This document shows positions 46 to 34,762 of a stretch of 35,171 bases of DNA, piece after piece (the stretch's first letter is position 1; each line of letters opens with the position of its first letter). Below the pieces are notes generated by a model. That model was given only the letters and a program-made list of their open reading frames with translations, was not told the origin of the DNA and did no database searches. The stretch lies in IMG/VR virus record IMGVR_UViG_3300042923_000451, positions 1 through 35,171 of that record; one strand, given 5' to 3'. Made by a program: the position numbers and the translations under genes. Source of the DNA: a virus.

Positions 46-62
46 TTCGTACATACTAAGAA
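46..62. promoter_or_regulatory. Operator-like palindrome, site A
   Basis: TTCGTAC-ATA-CTAAGAA: a perfect right half-site and a left half-site with two differences from the consensus TTCTTAG-N3-CTAAGAA. It overlaps the likely -10 region (CATACT, 52-57) of a plus-strand promoter whose -35 would be TTGAAT at 28-33. It lies between two divergent start codons, at 12 (minus) and 91 (plus). Confidence 0.55.
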
Positions 63-90
63 CCAAACCACGCGAAGGAGGAAACACCCA

Positions 91-159
91 ATGTTCTTTG
101 GTGCTGCGCTTATCATCGGTTATGCAATCGGTTTGGCTGTTAACACCTGGTTGGCTTAA
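91..159 (+). CDS. 22-residue hydrophobic peptide
   Basis: A 22-codon ORF on the plus strand, opposite to nearly all other genes. It starts with ATG nine bases after a good GAAGGAGG ribosome-binding site. The product is almost wholly hydrophobic (MFFGAALIIGYAIGLAVN, then TWLA), enough for one membrane-spanning helix. I do not recognise a family. The strong ribosome-binding site, the promoter-like sequence and the operator-like site at 46-62 argue for a real gene; its short length argues for caution. It could be a small membrane peptide or a leader peptide. Confidence 0.45.
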   Translation: MFFGAALIIGYAIGLAVNTWLA

Positions 160-172
160 TTGTGTCTGAGTT

Positions 173-188
173 TATACCTATAGGTATA
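173..188. repeat. 16-bp perfect palindrome
   Basis: TATACCTATAGGTATA is a perfect palindrome without a loop, lying between the 3' ends of the small plus-strand ORF (159) and the minus-strand regulator gene (207). It resembles a DNA-binding site for a dimeric regulator more than a terminator, because the stem is AT-rich and only a short T-run follows it on the plus strand. Confidence 0.4.
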
Positions 189-206
189 GTTTTGGTGCAA
201 AAAAAA

Positions 207-476
207 TCATTTTCGCTTTAACCCGCCATTGCCTATAACTAACGGCATGGAAATGGATTGTTCTGTTCTAGGCTTTTCAATGGCCCGTTCCTTTTCTTCT
301 TTTTGTGGCATGATCGGACGTTCAACCGTTTGATGAATCTTTGTTGTTTTAATGCCTAACATCAACCGCAACCCGTTTCTGCACATCTCAGACAGTGTAC
401 GTTGGTCAATGTCCTTCGTTGCTTCTTCAAGATCCGAATCAATTGCACGAAGTCTGAAGCTTATGGTTTTTCTCAC
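207..476 (-). CDS. Putative ribbon-helix-helix regulator
   Basis: An 89-residue protein. Its N-terminus has the layout of a MetJ/Arc ribbon-helix-helix protein: a short beta strand (KTISFRL, residues 3-9), a helix (residues 13-22) and a second helix (residues 27-40, RTLSEMCRNGLRLML). The C-terminal half is charged and Pro-rich and looks disordered. Such proteins bind DNA as dimers through the beta strand. The start is ATG after a GGTGGTG ribosome-binding site, and an operator-like palindrome (490-506) sits 14 bases upstream, which suggests control by the phage repressor. Its target is unknown; the palindrome at 173-188 is one candidate. The family call rests on pattern only. Confidence 0.6.
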   Translation of the reverse strand: MRKTISFRLRAIDSDLEEATKDIDQRTLSEMCRNGLRLMLGIKTTKIHQTVERPIMPQKEEKERAIEKPRTEQSISMPLVIGNGGLKRK

Positions 477-489
477 ATGATCACCACCG

Positions 490-506
490 TTCGTAGAAAC
501 TAAGAA
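490..506. promoter_or_regulatory. Operator-like palindrome, site B
   Basis: TTCGTAG-AAA-CTAAGAA, one change from the perfect palindrome and identical over all 17 bases to the site at 25130-25146. It lies immediately upstream of the ribbon-helix-helix gene on the minus strand, where bound repressor would block transcription of that gene. Confidence 0.65.
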
Positions 507-572
507 GTTTACAACATGTTTGCGCTAAGTAATACATTCTATGGGCTTCAGCCTAAATGATGCATGTTCCAA

Positions 573-599
573 CAAAAAAAGCCCCCGAAAAATGGGGGC
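573..599 (-). terminator. Rho-independent terminator
   Basis: Read on the minus strand, a six-base-pair GCCCCC/GGGGGC stem (581-599) with a short A/T loop is followed by TTTTTTTGTT. It ends the transcript of the 142-residue ORF at 719-1147. The A-run on the other side could also allow some plus-strand folding, but the U-tract is on the minus side. Confidence 0.8.
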
Positions 600-645
600 T
601 GATTGTATTACATCGTGTAAACTATGTGCTTTTTCGTGGGTTCTG

Positions 646-680
646 AGCTTCACTTCCGCTACGCTTACAAAGGTGAAGCT
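646..680. repeat. Inverted repeat in an intergenic stretch
   Basis: AGCTTCAC (646-653) is repeated inverted as GTGAAGCT (673-680), with a 19-base loop. It lies in the 477-718 gap together with operator B and the terminator at 573-599. There is no U-tract, so a terminator is unlikely; no function is evident. Confidence 0.4.
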
Positions 681-718
681 TATGCATACATGATACATCA
701 TATGTGAGAATGAGTGTA

Positions 719-1147
719 TTATGTGCGTTTGGTTTGTAAAAAAAGCTTGATATCCATTCCAGATTTCATAATTGGGAATAGTTCATCGGGGTCTTCATCA
801 GCAACGAGATAATCCAACATGTCTTCAAATGTACATTTCCAACCCTGAGAAGCAAAATACATATCCATTAGTTTCCCAAGATCAATGGAATCGTATTTTT
901 TCTCAATATCTTTTCCAAGCATTTGAAATGTACCGGTTATGGGATATTTCGCTTCCTTCATAAGATTGTAAAGAAAATACTCGTCCTTGCTGCCTTCGAT
1001 CCACTTCTTATTTTTTATGTTTGACTCCTGTATTTTTTCCATTGCAGCAAGGAATTTGTTGTATAAGGTATTATCATCTTCTTCTGAAACAAGAGTTTGA
1101 ATAGAATCTAGATGATGCTGAATTTGCTTCCTTTTCTCGCTGTTCAT
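719..1147 (-). CDS. Hypothetical protein, 142 residues
   Basis: The chosen start is the second of two consecutive ATG codons, six bases after GAGGTG. A longer reading frame reaches back to 1210, but its first codons lie within the upstream terminator hairpin, so it is rejected. The protein begins MNSEKRKQIQHHLDSIQ, is charged and mostly helical, and has no motif that I recognise. It sits behind the lysis cassette and its terminator and in front of its own terminator (573-599), so it is an independent unit. Genes at this place in prophages are often lysogenic-conversion or immunity genes; that is context only. Confidence 0.6.
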   Translation of the reverse strand: MNSEKRKQIQHHLDSIQTLVSEEDDNTLYNKFLAAMEKIQESNIKNKKWIEGSKDEYFLYNLMKEAKYPITGTFQMLGKDIEKKYDSIDLGKLMDMYFASQGWKCTFEDMLDYLVADEDPDELFPIMKSGMDIKLFLQTKRT

Positions 1148-1187
1148 CATTTTCACCTCATTAATGTCCTTATGAAGTTTATTGTAC

Positions 1188-1219
1188 AAAACAAAAAGCC
1201 CCCACCACAAGGGAGGGGC
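1188..1219 (-). terminator. Terminator of the late operon
   Basis: On the minus strand GCCCCTCCC (1211-1219) pairs with GGTGGGGGC (1198-1206) around a four-base TTGT loop, with one mismatch and one G-T pair, followed by TTTTTGTTTTG. It lies seven bases after the amidase stop codon and closes the late structural and lysis transcript. Confidence 0.88.
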
Positions 1220-1225
1220 AAATAT

Positions 1226-1969
1226 TTATATTAGTGCGCTATTGACTATGATGATATTGTTTGCAACGTCAAGTTCTGAACGAGTAAGGGTGCTATTGTA
1301 GGCTTTTTCTACGAAACGATAATCACCCAATAAGCCCCTTTCATATGCTCTCTGCAAAGAAGCAACTAACGCTTCCCGGACTTCTTGCGTAAGGGTCAGC
1401 ATGTTTTCACTCTCTCCTTTCCCTTTAAGCCTTCGATCAACCTCTAACTTGAAAACTTCCCATTGGCTTACATCGTCCACCCAAGGTTTAGGGCAGTTCT
1501 TCCGTGTAACGTCAAAATGTCTCATGAAATCACTTGGTGTGATGTTATACATTTTGCAAAGCTCCACGCCTAGTTGAATGGCCTTTTCGATGGTTGCAGG
1601 ATGAAAGGAACCGTCTTTTTCAATGCACAGCTCCACACCCACTGAATATGGATTTGCTTGTGATGCATGGTAAGAGACTTCTTCAATTGGAATAATAAGC
1701 AGGGTTTCAATTGGATCAATGAAGAAGTTAGCTGAAGCATAAATAAGCAGCTTTTCCGCTTGTTGCCATGTAATCTCACCGGATTGATATTGGCGCATGA
1801 CTTCATAATTCATAGCGGGCAAGGTTTTCCCGAAGTAGATGGAATGATTATATGCGCTTGCTAATGGGTTTGCGGTCCAATGCCATACAACGTTTCGAGT
1901 AAATGTGCGAATTATACCTGGTCGTGTGTACTCATTAACCGGGATAATGGCTTCGTTCCAAGGGGTCAT
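1226..1969 (-). CDS. N-acetylmuramoyl-L-alanine amidase (endolysin)
   Basis: A 247-residue endolysin that cleaves the bond between muramic acid and L-alanine of the peptidoglycan at the end of infection. It has the Amidase_2 fold, with the zinc ligands visible as His30 (VVWHWTAN), His151 and Cys159 (HFDVTRKNCPKPW); Tyr100-His101 lies in the usual substrate-pocket region. The catalytic domain takes up about residues 20-175. The C-terminal 60 residues probably form a small wall-binding or linker domain that I do not recognise. There is no signal peptide, so release depends on the holin. Its ATG overlaps the holin stop codon (ATGA), and a terminator follows it. Confidence 0.93.
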   Translation of the reverse strand: MTPWNEAIIPVNEYTRPGIIRTFTRNVVWHWTANPLASAYNHSIYFGKTLPAMNYEVMRQYQSGEITWQQAEKLLIYASANFFIDPIETLLIIPIEEVSYHASQANPYSVGVELCIEKDGSFHPATIEKAIQLGVELCKMYNITPSDFMRHFDVTRKNCPKPWVDDVSQWEVFKLEVDRRLKGKGESENMLTLTQEVREALVASLQRAYERGLLGDYRFVEKAYNSTLTRSELDVANNIIIVNSALI

Positions 1970-2376
1970 TTGTCAGTTCCCCTTTGCTTAAGAACTGCAA
2001 TAACATTCTTAAGCGGGCCAATAGGTACCCCTAATTTACCCCCGTTTTCCACTATGCTGATAAACTCGATCACGCAATAAGCAATTGCTATACCATCCCC
2101 CACATACCCTGCCGAACTAAGAACCGGTATTGCTAATTGAATCATATATACCGCACTTATCAGTAGGATGATGTAAGTTTTTTTCATCAGGCCGTTTTTG
2201 CCAATGCTGCTGTTTAATTCCTTTTGTGAATAACCCACCATTAATCCAGATAAAAAGTCAATCGTCATTAACCCCAACAGCACGACAAATGCCACGCCCA
2301 ACCCCCCTACCATCCATGAAATTACACCACCAATAAACATGAACCCTGTCTTAAGTACTGTGTCAAATCTGTCCAT
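1966..2376 (-). CDS. Phage holin (TcdE/Phage_holin_4 type)
   Basis: A 136-residue membrane protein with about three hydrophobic segments (roughly residues 10-45, 68-87 and 90-110). The motif 'LMTIDFLSGLMVGY' followed by 'LNSSIGKNGLMKK' is typical of the TcdE/UtxA holin family. It forms the membrane lesion that lets the amidase encoded directly downstream reach the wall. The start is ATG after AAAGGGGTG, and the gene overlaps the amidase by four bases, as lysis pairs usually do. Confidence 0.9.
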   Translation of the reverse strand: MDRFDTVLKTGFMFIGGVISWMVGGLGVAFVVLLGLMTIDFLSGLMVGYSQKELNSSIGKNGLMKKTYIILLISAVYMIQLAIPVLSSAGYVGDGIAIAYCVIEFISIVENGGKLGVPIGPLKNVIAVLKQRGTDK

Positions 2377-2405
2377 CCCCGCGCACCCCTTTAATTAAAT
2401 TAAAT

Positions 2406-2428
2406 ATTCCCCGCTAGGCACGGGGAAT
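2406..2428 (-). terminator. Hairpin between Tal-like gene and holin
   Basis: ATTCCCCG and CGGGGAAT form a perfect eight-base-pair stem with a seven-base loop, followed on the minus strand by ATTTAATTTAATT instead of a clean U-run. It lies in the only gap between the tail gene and the holin. It may act as a weak terminator or a processing site that lowers or delays lysis-gene expression. Confidence 0.5.
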
Positions 2429-2432
2429 GGCT

Positions 2433-7779: not shown

Positions 7780-8592
7780 CTACAAATATTTAGGCTGAAA
7801 ATCAAAAAAGACCGTGCAATTTAAGCCGGTCCCGCCAATCGTTATTTCTGCAAGTCCAACCGGCAATTCGAAGAACTCCCCGGACACCTTGCCTAGTTTG
7901 TTTGTTGCTCCAATTTTTGCAGTCATCTTGGCAAAGTCAATTGTTAACGTTTGGCTTGCAATGGCTTCTGAATAGCTCAATGTTTTACCATCGTAAGCCA
8001 AAGAGAAGGTTGTGAAGCTCCCTGTAATGACCACAACAGGGGAAACATCTACCGTGCCAATATTCCGCACCTGAACTGTTCCTGGAGCGTTAACAGTGAA
8101 TGTGTAGGCATCCTCACTGTCCAAAGTAATATCTTCCAACGTGTCCAACATGATTTCACTGTCCAACGTGATTGGATCGTCAGCCGAATAGTTAAGGTAT
8201 TTGAACGGGTCAACCGCAACCATAGACAATGTGAAGAAGCCCATTGCCAACAATCGTTCAATGGACAGGGTTCCGGTTATACGAACCGTATAGTGTTTAT
8301 CAATGTCATGGTCAAAGGTCAGCGTTATGTTCCGTGGTCTGCCCTTGCTGTCCGTCAGGAACTTTGCAAAAGCACGGGCTTTTTGTTGCATCTCCCTTGC
8401 TGAAATCGCATAGGGGAAAGCAAGCGGAATATCAATCATTCGTTCAGCTAGTTCAGCCCCGAAATCAATCAATCCGTCCCGTCCTGGGATTTGCAAAACT
8501 CTTTCCCGTGTTTCAGGGATTATGGGGTCACTGGCACCCTTCTGTACGATCAGGCCGAATGAGGAAATACTTTGACCATCAAGGGTTATCAC
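7780..8592 (-). CDS. Distal tail protein Dit
   Basis: A 270-residue protein of the siphovirus Dit family (Sipho_tail), which forms the hexameric hub joining the tail tube to the tip. Typical features are the 'GQSISSFGLIVQKG' opening, the 'RVLQIPGRDGLIDFGAEL' strand region (residues about 30-48) and, after about residue 130, a galectin-like C-terminal domain. The start is GTG, overlapping the tape-measure stop (GTGA). It follows the tape measure, as is usual. Confidence 0.88.
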   Translation of the reverse strand: MITLDGQSISSFGLIVQKGASDPIIPETRERVLQIPGRDGLIDFGAELAERMIDIPLAFPYAISAREMQQKARAFAKFLTDSKGRPRNITLTFDHDIDKHYTVRITGTLSIERLLAMGFFTLSMVAVDPFKYLNYSADDPITLDSEIMLDTLEDITLDSEDAYTFTVNAPGTVQVRNIGTVDVSPVVVITGSFTTFSLAYDGKTLSYSEAIASQTLTIDFAKMTAKIGATNKLGKVSGEFFELPVGLAEITIGGTGLNCTVFFDFQPKYL

Positions 8593-11574: not shown

Positions 11575-11970
11575 TCAACCTCCTAAATATGTCTTTACTT
11601 CATATCGCAGTTGTCTGCGTCTTATCTTCTCGTCTTGATCAGGTATCATAAGCCGGTTGATTCTGTAAAAATCAGCCTGAAGAACACCGGCATTGTAGTA
11701 GTGGAACCGATTCAGACCGGTTGGGTTATCAATTGCCCCATTACCGTCTATAGAGTCCGTCAAGGAATCAATTTGCCGTGTGTCAGGGTTATTTCCCCAA
11801 ACGTCTACTTCAAGAACGAAGTCTTCCCGCGTGAAATCCGTGTCACTCGTAGGAAGATTGTAAACGATGTAAGGGAACGGTGTTCCTGGTGGTGCCATAT
11901 CCGTATACACCCGGTTAATCCCGCTTAATGCTTGAAGTTTGGTTTTGATTTGCTTCAATAGTTCATTCAT
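11575..11970 (-). CDS. Tail completion / terminator protein (DUF3168-like)
   Basis: A 131-residue protein with features of the DUF3168/tail completion group: 'MNELLKQIKTKLQALSGI', 'TPFPYIVYNLPTSDTD' and 'DVWGNNPDTRQIDSLTDSI'. Such proteins cap the tail and join it to the head-closure ring. It overlaps the preceding gp10-like gene by four bases and is followed at once by the tail tube gene, which fits this role. Confidence 0.82.
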   Translation of the reverse strand: MNELLKQIKTKLQALSGINRVYTDMAPPGTPFPYIVYNLPTSDTDFTREDFVLEVDVWGNNPDTRQIDSLTDSIDGNGAIDNPTGLNRFHYYNAGVLQADFYRINRLMIPDQDEKIRRRQLRYEVKTYLGG

Positions 11971-16937: not shown

Positions 16938-18631
16938 AGAGAAATCACCCCCCTTGATTCATAAACTGAAGTAGTATCTTCATGAATAATCATCCTAGAC
17001 AATCCCATGATTAAGGCAACAATACCGTCAATTCTTCCTGTTGAATTCTTTTTGTCAGGCATAATGTTTAAGTTCGGGTCAGTCCTAACCGCCACATTTT
17101 CAATCATCCAACGCAAGACAGGATTGTCACCATGATTCAACCGCTTTTGAAGCACCAATGTTTCAAGTTGCTTCGTTGGTTCCGACATTGATTTGAAACC
17201 TTGTCGGACTTCCACCATGTCAAATCCATCACCATCAAGTTCCAGTGATAGTTGCAGAGAATTCCACGGGTCAAAGGCGATTTCTTGAAATATATACTTA
17301 TCATCCCTGAGCTGATTGATCTTTTGCCGTATATAGGCATAGTCAATGACATTACCGGGAGTGGTAAACACCAATCCTTGACGAACCCAGGCTGAATAGG
17401 GAACATTATCTCTATCTTCCCGCTCCCTCATGTTTTCTTCGGGAACCCAAAAAAACGGAAGTATATCATAAACCCCGGTTTCAGGATCTTCAGGTTCGGA
17501 AAGCAGCACAAATGCAGTTATATCCGTTTTACTGGACAAGTCCAACCCACCAAACAATCTGCGGTTTTTGAGATTTTCGGGAACAATCAACCCACCTGAA
17601 GCATCCCATTTGTGCAGGGGCATCCATGCGGTCACGCTCTTTGTCCAGACGTTTAAACGTTTGGTTAAGAAGTTGTTTTGTGCTGTTGGCATTTCAATTG
17701 CTTTCTCTGCCAAACGTTGAAGGTCATCATGCTTGACGGAAACGCCATAATTAGGATTGGCTTTAACCCAAACCTTCGGGTCCTTCCAATCGTCACCTTC
17801 GTCAATCGTGGCTATAAATGCAAAGAATGTTTCGTCTTTTTTTGCATTGGTACCTTTCAGGACTTTTACGGCATATTCTCTCAGGGCATAACATGGGCCT
17901 GACTGATTAAAACCGGCTGTTGTTATGGCAAACATCAACGATTGTCTGCGGGCACCAGTGGCGGTTTCTAGTACATCCCATAGCTCTTGATTCTTATGTG
18001 CGTGAAACTCGTCCACAATCGCCCCGTGAACGTTCAGACCATCCAAACTGTCCGCATCAGCTCCAAGGGGCAAGAACTTTGAACTCGTTGTGATAACGTG
18101 TAAATTGTTCTTGTAGACACGGATTCTTTTGAACAAGTCAGGTGAAGCTTTGACCATGTTCGCTGCTTCGTCAAAAGTGATTTTTGCTTGGTCCCGTTTG
18201 GTAGCAGCTGAATAAATCTCAGCACCCGGTTCAGCATCAGCAACCAGCAAATACAGCCCAACTCCGGAAGAAAGCGTTGATTTGCCATTCTTCCTGGGAA
18301 TCTCGTTATAAGCTGTTCGAAACCTCCGCTGATGATCCGCTTTTCGTTTCCATCCGAAAATAGAACCAACAATGAATTTCTGCCACAGCTCCAAGTGAAA
18401 CTTCTTGCCGGCCCATTCACCTTTTGAATGCTTCAGAAAATTATAAAAGCCGATAGCATGACCGGCTTCGTCTTCGTCAAAGTAGAAGGGAAACCCATCA
18501 TCATCAGCTTTTTCTAAATCGTCCATATGCCGTTGACAAGCTAGTTGAACCAATTCCCCTGCAATGATTTCCCCGTTCAATACCTTTTCGGCATATTCCA
18601 GAACAGGGCAATCAGATACGCTTTTTGGCAT
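16934..18631 (-). CDS. terL: Terminase large subunit
   Basis: A 565-residue packaging motor of the HK97/Terminase_1 kind. It has an ATPase with a Walker A-like loop (IPRKNGKST, residues 111-119) and Walker B with the catalytic acid (GAIVDEFH, Asp207-Glu208), then an RNase H-like nuclease domain with 'GGLDLSSKTDITA' (Asp364) and a late 'GRIDGIVALIMG' acid. It pumps DNA into the prohead through the portal and cuts the concatemer. The ATG follows GAGGA by eight bases and overlaps the small subunit by 20 bases. Confidence 0.95.
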   Translation of the reverse strand: MPKSVSDCPVLEYAEKVLNGEIIAGELVQLACQRHMDDLEKADDDGFPFYFDEDEAGHAIGFYNFLKHSKGEWAGKKFHLELWQKFIVGSIFGWKRKADHQRRFRTAYNEIPRKNGKSTLSSGVGLYLLVADAEPGAEIYSAATKRDQAKITFDEAANMVKASPDLFKRIRVYKNNLHVITTSSKFLPLGADADSLDGLNVHGAIVDEFHAHKNQELWDVLETATGARRQSLMFAITTAGFNQSGPCYALREYAVKVLKGTNAKKDETFFAFIATIDEGDDWKDPKVWVKANPNYGVSVKHDDLQRLAEKAIEMPTAQNNFLTKRLNVWTKSVTAWMPLHKWDASGGLIVPENLKNRRLFGGLDLSSKTDITAFVLLSEPEDPETGVYDILPFFWVPEENMREREDRDNVPYSAWVRQGLVFTTPGNVIDYAYIRQKINQLRDDKYIFQEIAFDPWNSLQLSLELDGDGFDMVEVRQGFKSMSEPTKQLETLVLQKRLNHGDNPVLRWMIENVAVRTDPNLNIMPDKKNSTGRIDGIVALIMGLSRMIIHEDTTSVYESRGVISL

Positions 18632-19121: not shown

Positions 19122-19389
19122 CGGACATACCCCCCTTAGAGAATTTTGACTTCGTGAAATCAACGCTGCGGGGGCGGTCTTCGCCGCCAAGGTCATAGAG
19201 ATTTTGACCCCCCTACCCCCTGCCTGTTTTCCTTCTATGCCATTTGTCAGATTTGCCGTTTAAAGCCCTTCTGACATACACGGCAATGGTTTTGTATTGG
19301 TACACCCCTAAAAGTTCTTAGAATGACCGACAGTGGCTTCCTATGCCTATATATTCTTTGTATCTAAGAATCTGTTTGCAAAGGAATGT
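19122..19389. other. Non-coding gap upstream of terS; possible cos region
   Basis: I see no gene in these 268 bases. They hold the terS ribosome-binding site, a C-rich tract (GACCCCCCTACCCCCTGCC, 19204-19222) and operator-like site C (19354-19370). HNH nucleases next to terminase are typical of cohesive-end phages, whose cos site usually lies between the two, so this gap is the best place for cos. No cos sequence can be identified by eye. Confidence 0.35.
19354..19370. promoter_or_regulatory. Operator-like palindrome, site C
   Basis: TTCTTTG-TAT-CTAAGAA: one change from the perfect palindrome, with an A/T spacer. It lies in the gap between the Cys-rich ORF and the terminase small subunit. 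Bound repressor there would block read-through into the packaging genes in a lysogen. Confidence 0.6.
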
Positions 19390-23404: not shown

Positions 23405-24880
23405 CTACACTAATTGCATATCAAGTTGATGTTGCGCCTTGTAAGGCAGCCCGGATTTGCATAACTCCGGTAGATTAGAACGGACCAAAGCTTCAGCGAA
23501 CGTGGGCGGTACTGAATTTCCGCAACGTGCCACTTGTGCTGTTTTAGGATACTGTTTTCCGTCTGCATCCCGGTCAATGATGTATTCGGGTGGGAACCCT
23601 TGTGCAGCGAATAGCTCATGTGGTTCAAGCATCCTCATGCCTATGTCACTGATATGGTAGCTTTCACCTTTTACCGTAACCAACCCGAATCGGTCCTTCG
23701 TTGTGACGGTGTGTAATGGCTCGTTGCAATCACTCCCAATGCTGGCACCGTAGTAGCTTGTAAGGAACGCTCTGACCTCTCCGAAATTGTTACCACCGGC
23801 AGTTACTGTATGCATAGGTTTTTCTAAGCTGCATCCATACTCTTGCCCTTTAAACTTCACAAGATGACTGGTGACTAAGGCGTTATGATCTACAGTGGTT
23901 ATGGTTGATAATGGCTCATTAATATCGTTACCGGGACCTGTGTAGTTCCCTCCGTAGTGTTTGGCGAGAAAGGCTGCAACTAATCCGTATCTGTTTGATG
24001 TGTCTAAAGTGAGCAGCGGTCTGTCCAACGTTTGCCCTCTGACTTCACTATTTGCTGTTTCGCTGTGATACTGGACCAAGAATGGAGCTGCCTGTTTCTC
24101 ACTCAACACAAATGGTTCTGGATTATCAATGACGAATTTTTGTATTCCTCTTGCGATTCGGCGCAATGTATTGTCTGCTAATGGTTTTGCTCGTTCGAAG
24201 ATACTCGGGCATTTCAGCGACCAGTCAATGATCTCCCCAGCCGTTCTCCACGGCTTTAATCGCTTGGCTGTAACCGGAAGTGTCTTAGGGTCTCCGTGTG
24301 TCGGTTCAGGCCATGTAATCGGCTTACCATCACAACGCGCCACCATGAAAAACCTTTTTCGTATCGTTGGGGCTCCATAATCACAAGCTCGAAGTTCTTT
24401 CCAATCCACTTCGTACCCTTGACGTTTAAGAGCATTGACGAATGTTCGAAATGTGCGCCCCTTTTGTTTCGGGTCCGGGTATCCGTCCTTAATGGGCCCC
24501 CAGGTAACAAATTCCTCTACGTTTTCTAACATGATGACTCTCGGTCTTACAGTAGCTGCCCATCGTAACGCTACCCAAGCAAGCCCTCTGATTGCCTTTT
24601 GTACTGGTTTACCACCTTTGGCCTTAGAAAAGTGTTTGCAATCAGGTGATAGCCAGCAAAGAGCAACCGGCGAACCTCCCGCAACCCTACGTGGGTCAAT
24701 GTCCCATACCGATTCACAATAATGTTCTGTTTCTGGATGGTTGGCCTTGTGCATGGCTATGGCAGCAGGATCGTGGTTAATTGCAATATCTACGCTGCGG
24801 CCTATTGCCAGTTCAATGCCGGTACTAGCTCCACCACCCCCGGCAAAATTATCAACAATAAGTTCCCTCAGAAGCTGCAC
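23405..24880 (-). CDS. C5-cytosine DNA methyltransferase
   Basis: A 491-residue m5C methyltransferase. Motif I is 'NFAGGGGASTG' (residues 11-21, AdoMet binding), motif IV 'SPDCKHFSKAKGG' with the catalytic Cys81 (the usual PPCQ is here PDCK), motif VI ENV (119-121), motif VIII 'GAPTIRKRFFMVA', and motifs IX-X near 'VARCGNSVPPTFAEAL'. The target-recognition region (about residues 270-400) carries repeated units of the form PL-x-T-(V/I/L)-T-T. No restriction enzyme is adjacent, so it is a solitary phage enzyme that probably shields phage DNA from host restriction. The start is GTG. Confidence 0.93.
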   Translation of the reverse strand: MQLLRELIVDNFAGGGGASTGIELAIGRSVDIAINHDPAAIAMHKANHPETEHYCESVWDIDPRRVAGGSPVALCWLSPDCKHFSKAKGGKPVQKAIRGLAWVALRWAATVRPRVIMLENVEEFVTWGPIKDGYPDPKQKGRTFRTFVNALKRQGYEVDWKELRACDYGAPTIRKRFFMVARCDGKPITWPEPTHGDPKTLPVTAKRLKPWRTAGEIIDWSLKCPSIFERAKPLADNTLRRIARGIQKFVIDNPEPFVLSEKQAAPFLVQYHSETANSEVRGQTLDRPLLTLDTSNRYGLVAAFLAKHYGGNYTGPGNDINEPLSTITTVDHNALVTSHLVKFKGQEYGCSLEKPMHTVTAGGNNFGEVRAFLTSYYGASIGSDCNEPLHTVTTKDRFGLVTVKGESYHISDIGMRMLEPHELFAAQGFPPEYIIDRDADGKQYPKTAQVARCGNSVPPTFAEALVRSNLPELCKSGLPYKAQHQLDMQLV

Positions 24881-24886: not shown

Positions 24887-25411
24887 TCACTTCCCCTTCC
24901 CCTTGCACACCGCTTCAATCACTTCAAGCTGATATTTAGCAATGTCCAGTTGCAACATGAAGTTGTTAACCCGCCATATGTTCAGAGCAATGCGGGCCAT
25001 AACATATGCATCCCTAACATTGTCGCTGCTGTGTTCAAATCCCCACTTCTTGAAGATGGGAAGAACCATTTCATCTTTCTTCGTGTTCCCTTTGCCCGTT
25101 GCGTATTTCTTAACCGCTGAAGGCGCAATTTCGTAGAAACTAAGAATTTTTCTGTATAGAGAATTGCGGATTCCGTGACCAATTCCATACTGGACGCTTA
25201 CACCTTGTCCCTTTGCACCAAATGCGAACCCTTCTAGTGCAATCACATCTTCTGGTTGAATGTGGTCCATAACTTCATCAAGCAGCGTGACCATTCTTTT
25301 TGGATCTTGGGAGCCTACACCAGTTAGTTCCTTTGCTCTCAGAACGTTACCTTGTTGATCAAGGGCAACGAAACCAGTTTTTGTTGACGGGTCCAATCCT
25401 ACAAAGCGCAT
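24887..25411 (-). CDS. RuvC-like Holliday junction resolvase
   Basis: About 174 residues with an RNase H fold. The acidic residues expected in RuvC-type resolvases are visible: Asp7 (FVGLDPSTKTG), Glu60 (VIALEGFAFG), and Asp130 and Asp134 (SSDNVRDAYVMA). It would resolve branched DNA before packaging. The ATG at 25411, behind GAGGTGAAAGGA, is preferred over one at 25438. The coding sequence contains an exact operator-like palindrome (25130-25146). Confidence 0.85.
   Translation of the reverse strand: MRFVGLDPSTKTGFVALDQQGNVLRAKELTGVGSQDPKRMVTLLDEVMDHIQPEDVIALEGFAFGAKGQGVSVQYGIGHGIRNSLYRKILSFYEIAPSAVKKYATGKGNTKKDEMVLPIFKKWGFEHSSDNVRDAYVMARIALNIWRVNNFMLQLDIAKYQLEVIEAVCKGKGK
25130..25146. promoter_or_regulatory. 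Operator-like palindrome inside the RuvC-like gene, site D
   Basis: TTCGTAG-AAA-CTAAGAA, identical over 17 bases to site B at 490-506, yet inside a coding sequence and far from a promoter. This is the situation of 'stoperators' in mycobacteriophage L5, where bound repressor halts elongation. Confidence 0.6.
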
Positions 25412-25416: not shown

Positions 25417-25677
25417 TCACCTCTTTCTCCAACTCCATTGGCTTCCAATGCTTAGTTCATGCCCTTTGGTTCCACTTTCTTCAATGTTCCGCTTGCGCTG
25501 CTTTGAAATTTTCTTCCCAATATCAGGGCTGATTTTACCGGCCTTTTCAAGATGACTTCCAACCGTGTCAATGGAGATGCCTAGCAACTTAGCGATTTCA
25601 ACCCGTGAAGAATCCCGATGCAGATACAGAGTGACTATTTTCATCGTTAGGCTGAAGGTTTTAAACTTGGGCTTCAT
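25417..25677 (-). CDS. Small HTH protein
   Basis: An 86-residue basic protein with a clear helix-turn-helix in the middle ('SRVEIAKLLGISIDTVGSHLEKAGKI', residues about 24-49, quoted only as the key helices) of the LuxR/sigma-4 or resolvase type, followed by a Lys/Arg-rich tail. It may be a small regulator or a DNA-binding accessory of recombination. Its end is close to the RuvC start, and its ATG lies behind GAGAGAAGGG. Confidence 0.7.
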   Translation of the reverse strand: MKPKFKTFSLTMKIVTLYLHRDSSRVEIAKLLGISIDTVGSHLEKAGKISPDIGKKISKQRKRNIEESGTKGHELSIGSQWSWRKR

Positions 25678-26542: not shown

Positions 26543-26836
26543 TCAGATTTTTCTTGCAAGTTTCCGCGCAATGTAGAGCCGTGCCCTTTTTCTGTCGATT
26601 CCTTCAGCAACCAGGAAATCAACGATTTGTGTCAAGAAGTGCTTCAGGTTGGCAAGCTTCTTCTCTGCTTCGCGGTTGTTCTCGTACCAAATCACATCAA
26701 GCAAATTTTTCTTTCTTCGTCTTCTCCTTCGCTGAAGCTCCCGACAAGCTGCGTACTTCAATTCCAGTTCACATGGTTCACGAAGGGCTATTTGGGCTAG
26801 TTGCTGTTTGGTTGCACCACTCAACGTACTGAGCAT
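26543..26836 (-). CDS. Hypothetical basic protein, 97 residues
   Basis: Strongly basic, with a run of Arg/Lys (LQRRRRRRKKNLLDVIW, residues about 35-50) followed by helices. It may bind nucleic acid. It begins inside the upstream small gene (59-base overlap) with ATG; a nearby TTG is an alternative start. No family is recognised. Confidence 0.6.
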   Translation of the reverse strand: MLSTLSGATKQQLAQIALREPCELELKYAACRELQRRRRRRKKNLLDVIWYENNREAEKKLANLKHFLTQIVDFLVAEGIDRKRARLYIARKLARKI

Positions 26837-27002
26837 GTCTATAGCGGTTCACCTCTCGTTCAGTGACAGTGTAGACCTTCATGATGTGTTCCCGTTCTTC
26901 CAGGGGCATATCAACTGCTAATGGATGATCTAACTGTTCAGCCTTATCAGTCAGATATTTCAAGGCTTTTTGATACTGTTCTTCAGTTTCAATACGCTTC
27001 AT
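26778..27002 (-). CDS. Hypothetical protein, 74 residues
   Basis: Begins MKRIETEEQYQKALKYLTDK; helical and charged, of a kind common near phage helicase genes, without a known function. Its ribosome-binding site (AAGGTG) touches the perfect operator palindrome at 27012-27028, so the phage repressor could block its transcription. Confidence 0.7.
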   Translation of the reverse strand: MKRIETEEQYQKALKYLTDKAEQLDHPLAVDMPLEEREHIMKVYTVTEREVNRYRHAQYVEWCNQTATSPNSPS

Positions 27003-27011
27003 GGAAACACC

Positions 27012-27028
27012 TTCTTAGAAACTAAGAA
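27012..27028. promoter_or_regulatory. Perfect operator palindrome, site E
   Basis: TTCTTAG-AAA-CTAAGAA is the only copy with both half-sites exactly complementary and defines the consensus. It lies in the 48-base gap between the helicase stop and the next ATG, overlapping the edge of that gene's ribosome-binding site. Confidence 0.7.
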
Positions 27029-27050
27029 TATTTGTACATGCTTTGGCATA

Positions 27051-28403
27051 TCATTTCTTAACGGTGGGCTTGTCCAACTCTTCATAGCGCTGCATCCACC
27101 ACTTGAACGCATACCTGAAGCGATTTGTGCCAACGTTCCTGCCTTTTGCAAAGATGCTGTGAATCAGCTTGCCACCGTCAATCTTGTCTTTCGGATCATG
27201 CCATAGGAACTCCACCACATCTGCGTCTTGCTCAATATTGCCCGATTCCTTCAGGTCTGAAAGCTTCGGTTCTTCGCGGTTCTCGCTTTCCCGTTTCAAT
27301 TGGGCTAGGAAAACGAACACCAATTTCATTTGTCGGGCAATCGTCTTGGCTTCACGGGTGACCCGTCCTATTGCTTGGTCCCTGTTCTCGTTTGGCTTTT
27401 GTATGATGTTCATGATTTGTAGATAGTCCACCAATATTGCAGCAATCTTCCCGTGCGATTTCATGAACTGCTTTGCTGTGGATCTAATTTCATCAATTGT
27501 CACACCGGCTGAATCTTGGACGTAGATGGGCAAACCTTCAAGTTCATCATAGGCTGCGTCAATCTTTTCCTGCTCCTTATCTGTAAACCCATTTTCCCCG
27601 CCTTTGTTAATCAAGCGGTTATAGTTGACACCTGAGATGCATGAGACTATACGGTCTTTCAGTTCGTCTTCATCCATCTCCTGAGAGTAGACAAGGACAC
27701 AACCACCGTCCGGATTATGTTTGGCTATACCATACGCAAGCTGAAGCATCTTAGCTGTCTTTCCTACTCCCGGCCTTCCTGCAAGTATATACAGCCAACC
27801 GCGCCACATTTGCGCCCAATCGTCAAACTGTTTGAAGCCCGTTAATAGCTTTTGCGCTTTGCTTTTTAGATGATCCATATATTTCTTACGGGTTTCCTTG
27901 AAACTCTGCATCTTACCGCTTTTCTTGGGCCTGAGACTGAAAACCTTATCTTCAATTTCACTGAAGTATTGTTCTTCGTCTTCAAACTCGCCTTTTTCAG
28001 AAAGAACCCTTAGTTCCCCTGAGACTATAAAACCTCTACGGCGCAATGCTTTAAACCGAACAATTTTGGCATAATGCTCAACGTTAGCAGCTGTAGGGCA
28101 ACTATTGGCCAGTTCCGATAAGTACGCAACTCCACCAATGCCTTCAAGCTTCTTGTAAGAATGGAACGCTTCAGTAATGGTTATCAAGTCAATCGGCTTG
28201 TTCAACTCGTTCATGTACCGCATGACACTGAAAATCTCTTCATGCTTCTTAATATGAAAGTCTCGGGGTTCCAGAAAAGGAATACTATCCAATGCATTGT
28301 TGTCCAAAAGTACAGCACCTAAAACGGATTGTTCAGCCGCTACGTCAATTAAGTCTGTCGGAACCTCATTCATCATAAATGAATTGTTCTGTGTCTGGAT
28401 CAT
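27051..28403 (-). CDS. Replicative DNA helicase (DnaB-like)
   Basis: A 450-residue hexameric helicase of the DnaB family. The N-terminal domain (residues about 18-120, 'AAEQSVLGAVLLDNNALDSI') is followed by a linker and a RecA-type domain with Walker A GRPGVGKT (209-216) and Walker B 'AAILVDYLQIM' (Asp326), plus the 'QLKRESENREEPKLSDLKES' region. It unwinds phage DNA at the fork. It follows the initiator gene with a 38-base overlap; the start is an ATG just behind GAGAAGGAC, and a later ATG pair (28371-28376) cannot be excluded. Confidence 0.93.
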   Translation of the reverse strand: MIQTQNNSFMMNEVPTDLIDVAAEQSVLGAVLLDNNALDSIPFLEPRDFHIKKHEEIFSVMRYMNELNKPIDLITITEAFHSYKKLEGIGGVAYLSELANSCPTAANVEHYAKIVRFKALRRRGFIVSGELRVLSEKGEFEDEEQYFSEIEDKVFSLRPKKSGKMQSFKETRKKYMDHLKSKAQKLLTGFKQFDDWAQMWRGWLYILAGRPGVGKTAKMLQLAYGIAKHNPDGGCVLVYSQEMDEDELKDRIVSCISGVNYNRLINKGGENGFTDKEQEKIDAAYDELEGLPIYVQDSAGVTIDEIRSTAKQFMKSHGKIAAILVDYLQIMNIIQKPNENRDQAIGRVTREAKTIARQMKLVFVFLAQLKRESENREEPKLSDLKESGNIEQDADVVEFLWHDPKDKIDGGKLIHSIFAKGRNVGTNRFRYAFKWWMQRYEELDKPTVKK

Positions 28404-31209: not shown

Positions 31210-31214
31210 AGGCA

Positions 31215-32162
31215 TCAAACCTCTTCCATCAGAGAAGCAAGACCGTCACCACCATCAGCAGCCGGCGGTTCATTTAATTCTTCAATCTCCATTTCCATTG
31301 TCTTGATTAGCCCTTTCAGCTTGGCAAGATCCATTGTTCCTTTAACACGCTCTTTCACATATGCGTCAATGTTCTCTTTGCCTTTGATACCCAATGCGGT
31401 CAAGTGCTTCTTCATCGTTTCACGAAGCTTGGCTTCTTCGGTAGGAGTTTGTTGATTTGCTTCTGGTGCTGTTGGTGGTTGTGCAACCTCTCCTTCAACC
31501 ACTTCAGCTGTTATGTCTTTCCTTTCTGCCGGTGGTATATAAGCAGGGATGTTGTCAACGGATGATGTAGAAGCTGAATATTCGTCTTCTGAAATTTCAA
31601 TTCCGAACTGGCGCTTGAAAGCCCGCTTGATTGCATATTTCACAATCATGTCATCAAAGTAGTTCTGCCACATCTTTTGTTGAGCCCCTATGTTGCTTTT
31701 CTTCAGGTGTTCCACTTGATCGGCTGTCACGATGACTAGAATGTTTGGAGAACCTTCACGATAGGCCACGCAGTAAGCCCCTATAGTTGGACCCCTGTTC
31801 GCCATACCTTTGACATTATGAACCACATCACCGGTTGTATAGTCGGCTGAGAATTCGTCATTTGTTCTAACTTCAGCGGCTATGAATCCCTTGTATAGTG
31901 GATTCTTTTTCGCAAGCATTACAATGCCTTCAACGGCAATCTGAATGGACATTTGAGGGCCGTTCTTCTCGCTTTGGTATACGGTGCAGAAGATTTGATT
32001 CAAGAACGGATTCAGACCGGATGCAGCGCACGTTTGCACGAATAATGAGAACTGTTCATTCGTGGTGCCCTTTGCAATTGTGGATTTTAATGTATCAAGT
32101 TCTTTTTCAGTGAAACCAGCAACAACAGCTTGCGTATTAATGTTTGAAAGTTGAGTGGACAT
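31215..32162 (-). CDS. bet: Phage recombination protein Bet (RecT/Redbeta superfamily)
   Basis: A 315-residue single-strand annealing protein. The N-terminal 200 residues carry the Bet pattern ('FTEKELDTLKSTIAKGTTNE', 'CAASGLNPFLNQIFCTVY', 'KNPLYKGFIAAEV', 'YAIKRAFKRQFGIEISEDEY'). The C-terminal part, after a Pro/Thr-rich linker, is a helical domain ending in an acidic 'LASLMEEV' tail that may recruit partners such as host SSB. It promotes annealing during phage recombination and replication. The start is ATG after AGGGGGAACTAATCT. Confidence 0.92.
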   Translation of the reverse strand: MSTQLSNINTQAVVAGFTEKELDTLKSTIAKGTTNEQFSLFVQTCAASGLNPFLNQIFCTVYQSEKNGPQMSIQIAVEGIVMLAKKNPLYKGFIAAEVRTNDEFSADYTTGDVVHNVKGMANRGPTIGAYCVAYREGSPNILVIVTADQVEHLKKSNIGAQQKMWQNYFDDMIVKYAIKRAFKRQFGIEISEDEYSASTSSVDNIPAYIPPAERKDITAEVVEGEVAQPPTAPEANQQTPTEEAKLRETMKKHLTALGIKGKENIDAYVKERVKGTMDLAKLKGLIKTMEMEIEELNEPPAADGGDGLASLMEEV

Positions 32163-32165
32163 AGA

Positions 32166-32372
32166 TTAGTTCCCCCTATTTTGTTTTCTGGAAATATTAG
32201 CTTGCTTGTTACGCTTATTGCGGGCTACACGTTCTTTCGCGGAAATGGAACTCACCCGCTGATGATGATGCTTCTGAACAACAGGCTTCGGTCTGCCCTG
32301 AGTGAGTAGCCCGCCGATGCCTAGCATGGTTGCCAACCCTAACAACAAGCCTGATTTTTTGTTAGACAACAT
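32166..32372 (-). CDS. Small basic protein with an N-terminal membrane helix
   Basis: A 68-residue ORF (MLSNKKSGLLLGLATMLGIG onward) with one hydrophobic segment followed by a very basic tail rich in Lys, Arg and His (KPVVQKHHHQRV). It could be a membrane-anchored nucleic-acid binder. It lies between the ATPase and Bet genes with good ribosome-binding sites on both sides (GGAGGTTTAAACC). No family is recognised. Confidence 0.65.
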   Translation of the reverse strand: MLSNKKSGLLLGLATMLGIGGLLTQGRPKPVVQKHHHQRVSSISAKERVARNKRNKQANISRKQNRGN

Positions 32373-32375
32373 GGT

Positions 32376-33902
32376 TTAAACCTCCAATTTTTCTGTTTTT
32401 GTTTCGACAATCTCAACTTTCAATTCATGGTTTGCGACGCGGGCTTCGATCAATTGCCCCAATGGTGCTGTATAGTTCAAAATGGATTCTGCACAATCCA
32501 CGAACACCGGTACCACAATGTCACTTTGCTGATTCAAAACGTCAATGAGTTCCAGACCGGCCTTTATCTTCTCAGCTGTAGAAAGCTTGCTGTAAGGCTT
32601 GCCATGCATCATAATTTCAAAGTCTGGTTTTATCTCTCCGTCCGTTTTGTTCACTTTAAACAACCTCAACGAAAGGTTGGTGAACAGATCGGATACTTTT
32701 TTTGCTTGCATTTCCGCAGCCTTGGCATGGAATGCTTTCAGAGCATCTAAGACGAAAATTGATTCATTCCTAGATTCTAAGAATTTTTCCTCAGTCTTTT
32801 TGGCTTCGACAACCATATTGCGGGATTGTTCGATTGCCTGGGATTCCTGAAGCATGTTCCGAAGTTCATTCTGACGGTTGTAAAGTGGCTGAAGGTCAAC
32901 CGTTTCTTCAACAGATCCGATGCTGTTTGATTCCTCTTGCAGCTGCTTGAACTCTTTAATCGCGTCATTGATTGCCTTTGCTTGACGGTTTAAGTCTGCT
33001 TGTTTGCTTTGTTCAGCCTTCTCTAATGCTTCCCCCTGTAAATCCTGCCCACATGTCTTGCAAGCACCTTCAACGGGTTCAACTTTGGCTTTTGCGTGGT
33101 TCTCTTTACCTGATGATATAAACACTTTGATTTGATCCATTCGGTTGCTTATTAGGGAAAGCTTTCTATTGACTGTAACGGCTTCCTTCCGTTTCCCTTC
33201 AAACCCCGCAAGTTCTTGTTCAATCTCCCCAATTTCCTTCTGAACCGCTTGAACGTCAATGTTCTTACCATCCGCACGTTGTAGCTGTTCCGTTAACGTC
33301 TTCACACGGCTTTGCTGTGCAATGATATCCTTATCCAACTTTGTTTTGTTTGCCCTGTGAATCTTCTCCAAATCGTCAGGACCGTGTTTCTTGAACAACT
33401 CGCCTAACTTCTCAGACTGTGGCTTTTCCAACTCCTTGAACACTTCCACATTTGCCGGGGCTGTGACATGCTGAAGGATTTGCGCCCGCTGCTCGTCCCA
33501 TTTCTGAGTAAAGAAGTATGATGGATTGAACAAGGTCAAGAATAGGTTCTTGTCAAACATTGATTCAACCGTGGTTTCAAATTCTGTTGCTTTCACGGGA
33601 ACGTCATTGACGATGTAACCGGCTTTGCCTTTCACGATGCTACGACCTAGCAACACGGATTTACCGTCAACATTCATTAGCAGCTTTGCAATCACTTCAT
33701 CGAACTCATAGTTCGTTGGTGTCGGGTCAGTCTTGCTGCCCAACGTGTCGGTTCCGAAAAGAATCCAAGTGATTGCTTCACCTATACTGGATTTACCCGC
33801 GCCATTCGTTCCGCTGATCCGAGTGATTTCTGGGAAGCTCAGTGTTAAATATTTGTGGTTCTTGAAGTTAATTAGGGTCAGACCATCGAAGATGATTTTC
33901 AT
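32376..33902 (-). CDS. SbcC/Rad50-like SMC ATPase with zinc hook
   Basis: A 508-residue ATPase of the Rad50/SbcC type. Walker A is GTNGAGKS (31-38). Two coiled-coil arms (about residues 180-275 and 290-400) flank a zinc-hook CxxC (Cys281, Cys284 in ACKTCGQD). Near the C-terminus 'VVPVFVDCAESI' serves as Walker B. It would tether or open DNA ends for recombination, but no SbcD-like nuclease is next to it. Its ATG overlaps the previous gene (ATGA). An operator-like palindrome (32767-32783) lies within the coding sequence. Confidence 0.9.
   Translation of the reverse strand: MKIIFDGLTLINFKNHKYLTLSFPEITRISGTNGAGKSSIGEAITWILFGTDTLGSKTDPTPTNYEFDEVIAKLLMNVDGKSVLLGRSIVKGKAGYIVNDVPVKATEFETTVESMFDKNLFLTLFNPSYFFTQKWDEQRAQILQHVTAPANVEVFKELEKPQSEKLGELFKKHGPDDLEKIHRANKTKLDKDIIAQQSRVKTLTEQLQRADGKNIDVQAVQKEIGEIEQELAGFEGKRKEAVTVNRKLSLISNRMDQIKVFISSGKENHAKAKVEPVEGACKTCGQDLQGEALEKAEQSKQADLNRQAKAINDAIKEFKQLQEESNSIGSVEETVDLQPLYNRQNELRNMLQESQAIEQSRNMVVEAKKTEEKFLESRNESIFVLDALKAFHAKAAEMQAKKVSDLFTNLSLRLFKVNKTDGEIKPDFEIMMHGKPYSKLSTAEKIKAGLELIDVLNQQSDIVVPVFVDCAESILNYTAPLGQLIEARVANHELKVEIVETKTEKLEV
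32767..32783. promoter_or_regulatory. Operator-like palindrome inside the ATPase gene, site F
   Basis: TTCCTAG-ATT-CTAAGAA, one change from the consensus, with an A/T spacer. It lies within the coiled-coil coding part, far from a start codon, about 1.9 kb into the early transcript, and so could work as a stop site for elongating polymerase. Confidence 0.55.
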
Positions 33903-34222
33903 TTGCTCACCTCGTATTTCACATCTTCAAAGAACTCACTAAGGAGATAAGCGCAGCCAGCTTCTTTGTGTTCGTGCTTTGGCTCCCAAGATGCCATAAC
34001 TGCTTTCAAATGACGTAATGCTTTTTGAGTTTCAATGCCTTCTTTTGGCTTCCATTCACATTTCTTAAGTCCTCGATAAAACCAATCGGTAACAACTTTG
34101 TTCCACTTCGTTTTACCGTCCCTAAATTCTTCAGGAATGCTTGCAAATTCCGGTAAAAGTTTGCTCATGTCACCACCAAAGGCAAGATCAGCATTTGTTA
34201 CTTCTTGTATTTTAATCTGCAT
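33899..34222 (-). CDS. Conserved early phage protein, 107 residues
   Basis: Begins MQIKIQEVTNADLAFGGDMS; 'LLPEFASIPEEFRDGKTKWN' and 'LKAVMASWEPKHEHKEAGCA' are well-ordered segments that I associate with proteins found next to recombination ATPases in other Bacillales phages, without a known role. The start is ATG behind AAAAGGAGCC. Confidence 0.72.
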   Translation of the reverse strand: MQIKIQEVTNADLAFGGDMSKLLPEFASIPEEFRDGKTKWNKVVTDWFYRGLKKCEWKPKEGIETQKALRHLKAVMASWEPKHEHKEAGCAYLLSEFFEDVKYEVSK

Positions 34223-34252
34223 ATGTTACGGCTCCTTTTCCTTTTATTGAAC

Positions 34253-34369
34253 TTACCTTGCAAGATCAGCGATAAAACAAAGACCAACATAAGCGACTAA
34301 GCCAACAACAACGAACGAAGCAGAAGTTGCAAAAACCATGAAATAATCAAATGCTGAGACTTTTTCCAT
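34253..34369 (-). CDS. 38-residue membrane peptide
   Basis: Begins MEKVSAFDYFMVFATSASFV and continues VVGLVAYVGLCFIADLAR, one long membrane helix. It starts within the end of the HTH gene (23-base overlap) behind AAGGAAGGGTG. No family is recognised; the strong ribosome-binding site and coupling favour a real gene. Confidence 0.55.
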   Translation of the reverse strand: MEKVSAFDYFMVFATSASFVVVGLVAYVGLCFIADLAR

Positions 34370-34583
34370 CCGTTTCACCCTTCCTTTGTTTGCTTTCTAA
34401 CCAAGCAAAGAAACTGTCTCGAAGTACACGCTTATTGCCGTTCAACTTATCAAGTGCGGGAAAGTCAGTCAGTTTGAACATTTCGTAAGCTGTGCTTTGA
34501 GCTACACCCATAATTTCAGCAACATGTTTCACTGACAAAACAACTGGGTACACCTCTTTATGGTTGAAATTCTCAGTTGCCAA
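34347..34583 (-). CDS. Excisionase-type HTH protein
   Basis: A 78-residue protein with a MerR/excisionase winged HTH ('VLSVKHVAEIMGVAQSTAYE', residues about 15-34, then 'DFPALDKLNGNKRVLRDSFFAWLES'). It is the first gene of the leftward early operon, as Xis or Cro-like genes often are. The start is TTG seven bases after a near-perfect AAAGGAGGTG. Its promoter is at 34679-34707 and carries the repressor operators. It may act as an excisionase or as an early regulator. Confidence 0.82.
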   Translation of the reverse strand: MATENFNHKEVYPVVLSVKHVAEIMGVAQSTAYEMFKLTDFPALDKLNGNKRVLRDSFFAWLESKQRKGETDGKSLSI

Positions 34584-34607
34584 GATTTTTCACCTCCTTT
34601 ACAATAT

Positions 34608-34624
34608 TTCTTAGAAACTATGAA
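34608..34624. promoter_or_regulatory. Operator-like palindrome, site G
   Basis: TTCTTAG-AAA-CTATGAA, one change from the consensus. It lies in the transcribed leader of the early operon, 25 bases upstream of the TTG start, downstream of the early promoter. Confidence 0.65.
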
Positions 34625-34650
34625 ACCTGTTGTTTAATTCTGCGTATGTT

Positions 34651-34667
34651 TTCTTAGATTCATAGAA
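34651..34667. promoter_or_regulatory. Operator-like palindrome, site H
   Basis: TTCTTAG-ATT-CATAGAA, with a perfect left half-site and two changes in the right one. It lies just downstream of the -10 of the early promoter, around the expected transcription start. Confidence 0.6.
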
Positions 34668-34678
34668 TCCGTGAGATA

Positions 34679-34707
34679 ATCATAATTCTTAGATACTACG
34701 AAGTCAA
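34679..34707 (-). promoter_or_regulatory. Leftward early promoter
   Basis: On the minus strand TTGACT (34702-34707) and TATGAT (34679-34684) are separated by exactly 17 bases, a strong sigma-A promoter. It drives the early operon starting with the excisionase-type gene at 34583. The spacer is filled by operator site I. Confidence 0.85.
34686..34702. promoter_or_regulatory. Operator palindrome in the early promoter spacer, site I
   Basis: TTCTTAG-ATA-CTACGAA, one change from the consensus. It covers the whole spacer of the early promoter and the last base of its -35, so repressor binding would directly exclude RNA polymerase. Confidence 0.75.
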
Positions 34708-34745
34708 CTCTATTTTTCGGTTTATTCAATGTTTTTACGAATACT

Positions 34746-34762
34746 TTCTATGATTCTAGGAA
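34746..34762. promoter_or_regulatory. Operator-like palindrome near the repressor promoter, site J
   Basis: TTCTATG-ATT-CTAGGAA, the most divergent copy (three changes). It overlaps the expected -35 position of a GATAAT -10 (34778-34783) in front of the repressor gene and so may give negative autoregulation. Confidence 0.5.

Follow-up and report, generated by a model that had tools for sequence, protein, structure and literature searches.

The IMG/VR virus record IMGVR_UViG_3300042923_000451, analysed here over its whole length of 35,171 bases (the window), is classed as linear and is possibly a fragment. In our choice of open reading frames the genes run leftward (minus strand) throughout, except for a repressor gene on the plus strand, which starts at position 34843 and exits through the right end. 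Its first 109 codons (34843 to 35169) encode an XRE-family immunity repressor (Pfam HTH_3, 1.1e-14; transcriptional regulator in PHROG; alignment A1), the last part of the gene being cut off by the end of the record beyond 35169. Along the same genome lie ten copies of a 17-bp palindrome, TTCTTAG-N3-CTAAGAA, which are very probably operators of this repressor, and the copies far from the main switch may serve to shut off virus genes there.

Four of the copies adjoin the repressor gene, as a first-pass annotation of this DNA had described. The one nearest the gene (34746 to 34762) has three changes from the consensus and scores 16.5 bits in the matrix described below; the next (34686 to 34702, one change) occupies the spacer of PR, the presumed early promoter, TTGACT-17-TATGAT (34679 to 34707, minus strand, a 10 of 12 match), an arrangement found in many relatives. 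That an operator lies inside the presumed PR can be read directly from the sequence. Two more matrix sites are located just downstream of PR (34651 to 34667, two changes) and in its leader, before the first early gene (34608 to 34624, one change). This first gene downstream of PR (34347 to 34583, minus strand) encodes an excisionase/AlpA-like HTH_17 protein (Pfam, 1.2e-7; PHROG).

The six other copies are dispersed over the remaining 34.5 kb. Site 46 to 62 (two changes, 15.3 bits) is found 30 nt upstream of a leftward gene that exits the record and whose start was judged by eye, and site 490 to 506 (one change, 17.9 bits) is 13 nt upstream of the GTG start codon of a small leftward gene at 207 to 476. 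Site 19354 to 19370 (one change, 22.0 bits) lies in a noncoding gap that precedes the gene for the small terminase subunit. The copy that matches the consensus exactly (27012 to 27028, 24.8 bits) follows the DnaB-like helicase gene in a gap of 48 bp, where it abuts the presumed ribosome-binding site of the next gene. Two copies are intragenic, namely 25130 to 25146 (one change, 17.9 bits) in the RuvC-like gene, identical to site 490 in all 17 bp, and 32767 to 32783 (one change, 22.5 bits) in the SbcC-like ATPase gene (32376 to 33902, minus strand). Thus, four of the six dispersed sites are noncoding, compared with 6.3% of the sequence (P about 2e-4). Next to operator 46, at 91 to 159 on the plus strand and against the general gene direction, we also noted by eye a possible open reading frame for a hydrophobic peptide of 22 codons, preceded by a sequence resembling a ribosome-binding site.

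All ten palindromes were present where the first-pass annotation had placed them, nine of them with two or fewer changes (34746 being the exception), and all had only A or T in the three spacer positions, as claimed. Between positions 1 and 34500 the numbers of matches with at most 0, 1, 2 and 3 changes were 1, 5, 7 and 8, against 0, 0.0075, 0.18 and 2.0 expected from 400 second-order Markov sequences; the rough chance figure of 0.1 given earlier for at most two changes was therefore about right. Over the whole window, 13 matches with at most three changes were counted, against 1.65 in 100 dinucleotide shuffles (largest count 6). Three of these 13 had been omitted before, at 18622 (two changes), 32737 (three) and 34570 (three), and they score 10.5, 10.2 and 11.2 bits, below all ten reported sites.

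These scores come from a matrix built on 56 sites (45 distinct) from the immunity regions of ten relatives, into which no window sequence entered. Since the training sites were chosen by their likeness to the earlier consensus (at most four changes), the matrix is independent of the window sites and not of the consensus itself. Its ten top-scoring positions in the window are exactly the ten reported sites, with 15.3 to 24.8 bits, the next position reaching 11.2 bits. With the score of the weakest site, 15.3 bits, as the threshold, six sites were found outside the immunity region where 0.10 were expected. A de novo search for palindromes gave 8 copies of this family, compared with a top family of 4 in the null (four simulations). 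The mean pairwise identity among the copies is 79% within the 17-bp site and falls to 32% and 27% over the 15 bp on either side (26% expected), and likeness so confined indicates that the copies are not fragments of a larger repeat. We rejected the A/T spacer as a peculiarity of the window, because in the matrix of the relatives each spacer position is A or T in about 87 to 98% of cases, making it a property of the whole operator family.

Might the dispersed sites nevertheless be chance matches, with only the immunity cluster functional? The relatives do without dispersed sites, and two of the six are intragenic, but the six sites of at least 15.3 bits, the five with at most one change (against 0.0075 expected) and the noncoding enrichment refute this statistically for the set as a whole, so that we consider it hardly credible. 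Both the site family and its dispersal beyond chance are established at the level of the sequence. These statistics apply to the set, and weak members, above all site 46 with its 15.3 bits, could be fortuitous.

Motif and repressor were found together from either starting point. An exact pattern scan of viral contigs, for which a chance background is to be expected, matched 84 stretches; 80 loci were listed and scanned, and 15 of these had a further match with at most two changes. Eight of the 15, those with close matches, were used; L116 was dropped because it belongs to the same record as L040, and L054, L064, L073, L075, L085 and L112 were left out because their matches lie far apart (L and G numbers are our own labels). 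Two of the latter, L064 and L085, carry the same three operator-like matches in mirrored order on two contigs. All eight clustered contigs, found by DNA pattern, have a homologue of the repressor beside the cluster (E values from 9e-20 to 2e-27). In the opposite direction, 28 of 37 viral loci with a repressor homologue have three to six sites of at least 13 bits within 700 bp upstream, at similar offsets.

Among the matches listed, four prophage loci, in Aneurinibacillus and Sporolactobacillus, also had this cluster. Over these four whole genomes, 24, 14, 16 and 17 matches with at most two changes were counted, compared with 54, 40, 39 and 43 for the reversed control, indicating that the motif is not enriched genome-wide there. 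The examined stretches of the RecT-related phages L011 to L020 and those of the Brevibacillus and Anoxybacillus phages L043 to L046 showed no such cluster. The first-pass claim that this one repressor binds all the sites holds as far as sequence goes, on the strength of the matrix from other phages and of the two-way linkage; the linkage itself is established, and from it we infer the binding.

The presumed recognition helix, INNKTLSGYE, is invariant in the 15 repressors of alignment A1. Only repressors that accompany a cluster are included in this alignment, and the scan behind it used the helix as a search word, so its conservation is partly an effect of selection. In two relatives whose open reading frames were read, a gene with a metallopeptidase-type HELGH motif directly follows the repressor. 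In lambda-type switches, operators are common to two regulators, and one may ask if another phage regulator of the same specificity, Cro-like or lytic, uses the dispersed sites. The window does encode further small helix-turn-helix (HTH) proteins (34347 to 34583 and, weakly, 25417 to 25677), but neither contains an INNKTLSGYE-like helix in its first 60 residues and, across phages, the motif accompanies the repressor, which makes a second user of the sites very improbable.

The relatives reveal how such operators are usually arranged. We compared 31 loci chosen for having operators (drawn from L021 to L024, L035, L036, L038 to L040, L118, L178, L180, L181, L183 to L198, L200 and L202), a set that excludes nine site-poor loci and L037, a near copy of L036. 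Their core cluster is often found near -146, -110, -81 and -60 from the repressor match, and in 17 of the 31 an operator fills the spacer of a promoter-like match of at least 10 of 12. All 31 also have an outer operator about 225 to 295 bp beyond the core cluster and 344 to 474 bp upstream of the match to the repressor. In 30 of them this operator overlaps the first early gene, mostly no more than about 30 bp from its stop codon, so the family already has an operator in presumably transcribed DNA away from PR, perhaps a loop anchor or a built-in roadblock. The spacings between the immunity operators of the window (43, 35 and 60 bp) differ from those of the relatives, and none of its 22 best matrix positions is near 34347, at the end of its first early gene.

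The outer operator kept by all 31 relatives is compatible with looping, and the repressor CI of phage TP901-1 uses three operators and forms hexamers (PMC7250872). The dispersed sites of the window could be anchors for long-range contacts (loops or compaction) or could titrate the repressor, without blocking transcription themselves. Their spacings, however, are irregular, ranging from 0.4 to 19 kb, the noncoding bias is not predicted by such a role, and it would need oligomerisation of a short repressor, which is putative here. We regard anchoring or titration as improbable.

The gene order of the window, namely SbcC-like ATPase, RecT, metallo-hydrolase, DnaD-like, DnaB-like, RuvC-like, a PHROG 248 'transcriptional activator', HNH and terminase, matches that of Paenibacillus phage Fern, and the PHROG 248 product is putatively ArpU-like, on the analogy of Fern. 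Identity to the Fern counterpart is 49% for the SbcC-like protein and 53% for the RuvC-like one. Sites 25130 and 32767 fall where the proteins differ from those of Fern, so they could have arisen at little cost. The early region also contains a phage DNA methyltransferase gene (23405 to 24880, minus strand). A search of Rfam gave no match.

Our best overall explanation, which we hold with somewhat better than even confidence, is that the palindromes form the operator family of the XRE repressor, with shut-off at PR and with dispersed copies that act mostly as elongation roadblocks. A repressor dimer, as the palindromic form of the operator suggests, would bind 34686 inside the PR spacer and shut PR off; the copies at 34651 and 34608 in the leader would strengthen this effect, and the copy at 34746 probably also controls the synthesis of the repressor. 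The six dispersed copies would let the repressor act on the replication genes, the terminase and the left-end genes. Most of them would act as roadblocks in the path of leftward-moving RNA polymerase, whether it has leaked past PR or initiated within the operon, and 490 and 46 may instead serve as ordinary operators of local promoters.

In a consensus scan, no sigma-A-type promoter-like match (at least 9 of 12) overlapped a dispersed site on the transcribed strand; one on the opposite strand shares two bases with 19354. Together with the position of three sites close before start codons, this suggests that most of the copies act after initiation. Location favours a block downstream of initiation at 25130, 27012, 32767 and perhaps 19354, and we infer roadblock action from it; that roadblocking is the main mode of most dispersed sites has, in our estimate, roughly an even chance.

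A different possibility is that each dispersed site serves as an ordinary operator for one of several local promoters, where the repressor would block initiation without any block of elongation, as the SPBRE elements of the Bacillus subtilis phage SPbeta are for its repressor MrpR (PMC10516654), a precedent from a Bacillus phage. Sites 46 and 490 are indeed located just upstream of gene starts. Moreover, a bidirectional terminator-like hairpin (580 to 600) separates gene 207 to 476 from the lysis genes, so this gene probably has its own promoter, and since 490 stands between the hairpin and its gene, an operator of a local promoter is as likely there as a roadblock. Against a general role of this kind stand the lack of a promoter-like match of at least 9 of 12 over the dispersed sites on the transcribed strand, the intragenic position of 25130 and 32767, and the location of 27012 in a 48-bp intergenic gap. 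For the dispersed sites as a group, local promoters seem to us rather unlikely, though well worth considering.

Several observations weigh against the roadblock explanation or against parts of the evidence for it. Promoter-like matches are as frequent in the window as in shuffled sequences, so their absence at the dispersed sites is weak evidence, and a leftward 10 of 12 match occurs about 80 bp upstream of 19354. The noncoding fraction depends on our own gene calls. The stronger half-site is on the right (plus strand) in all five asymmetric dispersed sites, the sixth being symmetric, but the immunity operators of relatives lean likewise (89 right, 29 left and 15 equal, in 29 distinct sets), and we rejected the shared polarity as proof of stoperators, the dispersed repressor sites of mycobacteriophages. 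On the side of the repressor, 9 of the 37 homologue loci have no site or one. Five of these nine (L177, L179, L182, L201 and L203) carry INNKTLSGYE and have at most one weak operator-like site nearby; these are perhaps orphan regulators or use another spacing between half-sites. Three others (L185, L186 and L188) have the cluster and read IHNKTLSGYE. Helix and site therefore do not correspond one to one, and the recognition helix is only partly informative.

The relatives add a further point on this side. In the 28 viral records that bear a cluster (G007 to G012, G020 to G027 and G439 to G452, near copies G008 to G010 included; about 1.23 Mb from the listed lengths), only four matches with at most two changes lie outside the immunity region, at 11647 in G010, 31089 in G020, 8396 in G025 and 10930 in G445. 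G013 and G014, which encode weak homologues and have no cluster, are outside this count, and the pieces of G002 were left unscored, G011 showing the same operators. At the chance rate of the window (0.18 per 34.5 kb) about six would be predicted. In about 490 kb from ten relatives, three positions beyond the immunity region score 15.3 bits or more, where about 1.4 are expected at 0.10 per 34.5 kb; both chance rates use the composition of the window and so apply only approximately to the relatives. Two of the four out-of-region matches named above are the far sites at L178 and L187 that reach this score. Outside the immunity region, the motif of the relatives is at chance level, and among the phages examined the window alone shows dispersal. 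When conservation in related phages, proposed earlier as a check, is considered, the copies of the immunity region are kept and the dispersed ones are not.

A second phage with dispersed copies was not found. Queries with RecT, SbcC, capsid and DnaB in viral contigs gave no close sibling, the relatives having 40 to 59% identity or none being returned, and a plasmid search gave only homologues below 60% identity. The pattern TTCGTAGWWWCTAAGAA occurred in 70 viral stretches, six of which (L211, L223, L232, L234, L257 and L269) contain another site that scores 15.3 bits or more. In five of the stretches (L223, L232, L234, L257 and L269) two operator-like matches are about 1.8 kb apart. The hunt among 15 genomes of one order gave two matches, G030 and the centre genome G001 itself, and the same hunt in a draw of 398 genomes of the phylum gave one, again G001.

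We also looked for a habit of dispersal at the level of the phage backbone by searching 11 phages de novo for palindrome families, with four simulations each as the null. Fern (L283) has five copies of AATGAA-N6-TTCATT, at 7789, 21517, 22341, 26849 and 27582, the second beside the repressor gene and the rest scattered. As this count equals the null (up to 5), it was counted neither way; though not above the null, the family is another possible case of dispersed operators in a phage with this type of backbone. A slight excess was seen in G015 (6 against up to 5), Jimmer1 (7 against 5) and A403 (9 against up to 8), the excess words of Jimmer1 and A403 being A/T-only, and G011 has five copies of an unrelated word against 4 in the null. 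Clusters within one short region also occur in G007, G011 and G016. The latter (L281/L282) carries five TTTACC-N4-GGTAAA-like copies within 160 bp (27170 to 27313), near an HTH gene at 26763 to 27032 that is a weak homologue; they are probably operators of another type of repressor.

Dispersed repressor sites are already known, in Bacillales phages as elsewhere, and what is new here is the dispersal of an XRE palindrome when compared with the relatives. The first-pass annotation took scattered sites to be uncommon among Bacillales phages, a view that has to be corrected, since MrpR of SPbeta binds ten dispersed SPBRE places, as determined by chromatin affinity purification sequencing (ChAP-seq; PMC10516654), and multiple asymmetric operators have been attributed to phi105 (PMC1934351). 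The literature within our reach, which mostly left out subscription papers, contained no description of a palindromic XRE operator family dispersed in one phage and confined to immunity regions in its relatives; dedicated queries on dispersed operators found no paper, and those combining TTCTTAG with repressor and phage gave, among the papers listed, none about the motif, judged by titles and the beginnings of abstracts. The 17-bp operator can also serve in practice to recognise Firmicutes prophages of this immunity type and to group them. If the dispersal is what it appears to be, the other family members examined represent the non-dispersed state, and the step from a local switch to dispersed silencing becomes open to comparison.

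Like SPbeta, the window represents a Bacillales phage whose master repressor very probably has dispersed sites. MrpR, however, resembles tyrosine recombinases and recognises a 15-bp element located in promoter regions (PMC10516654), whereas the window has an HTH_3 protein (109 residues) and palindromes, two of them intragenic, and its dispersed sites fall on no promoter-like match of the transcribed strand, as far as a consensus scan can tell. In TP901-1, CI, which has a helix-turn-helix domain (PMC4941734), acts on three operators, OR, OL and OD, around divergent promoters (PMC7250872). This resembles the relatives of the window, with their cluster and one outer operator; the window differs in that it has dispersed operators and no outer one where its first early gene ends. 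By sequence, the closest solved chain to the window repressor is the Xre-family regulator of ICEBs1 (7t8i, E = 1.4e-10), which we take to be ImmR; the likeness concerns the protein sequence only. As for the gene with the HELGH motif that follows the repressor in two relatives, the window stops too early to show a peptidase gene of its own. A small protein can act on elongation from within a gene, as does the controller C.Kpn2I, whose site is inside a coding region and which stalls RNA polymerase as an elongation roadblock (PMC6237814), although, unlike the window repressor, it serves the control of restriction-modification.

The mycobacteriophages of the L5 type remain the obvious term of comparison for genome-wide silencing. 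They have 20 to 30 repressor sites, which mostly avoid promoters, often occupy short gaps between genes and follow the direction of transcription (PMC6550527), and these 13-bp asymmetric sites are bound by a two-domain monomer (PMC9283540). As in L5 and its Cluster A relatives, the sites of the window are found at the early promoter and dispersed beyond chance, mostly in gaps and off recognisable promoters. Unlike those of L5, they are near-perfect 17-bp palindromes and number ten in total, six of them dispersed, and the block of elongation is putative. The likeness to stoperators drawn in the first-pass annotation is thus plausible and unproven, being favoured by dispersal, location in gaps and distance from promoters, and disfavoured by the palindromic form and the smaller number, with polarity giving no independent support. 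We tentatively suggest, as something short of an even bet, that one lineage spread the operators of a palindrome-binding XRE repressor whose relatives use theirs only at the immunity switch, one of them already within the first early gene, and so arrived at a genome-wide silencing of elongation convergent with the mycobacteriophage stoperators; if true, genome-wide silencing by phage repressors would have arisen a second time, on a different structural basis.

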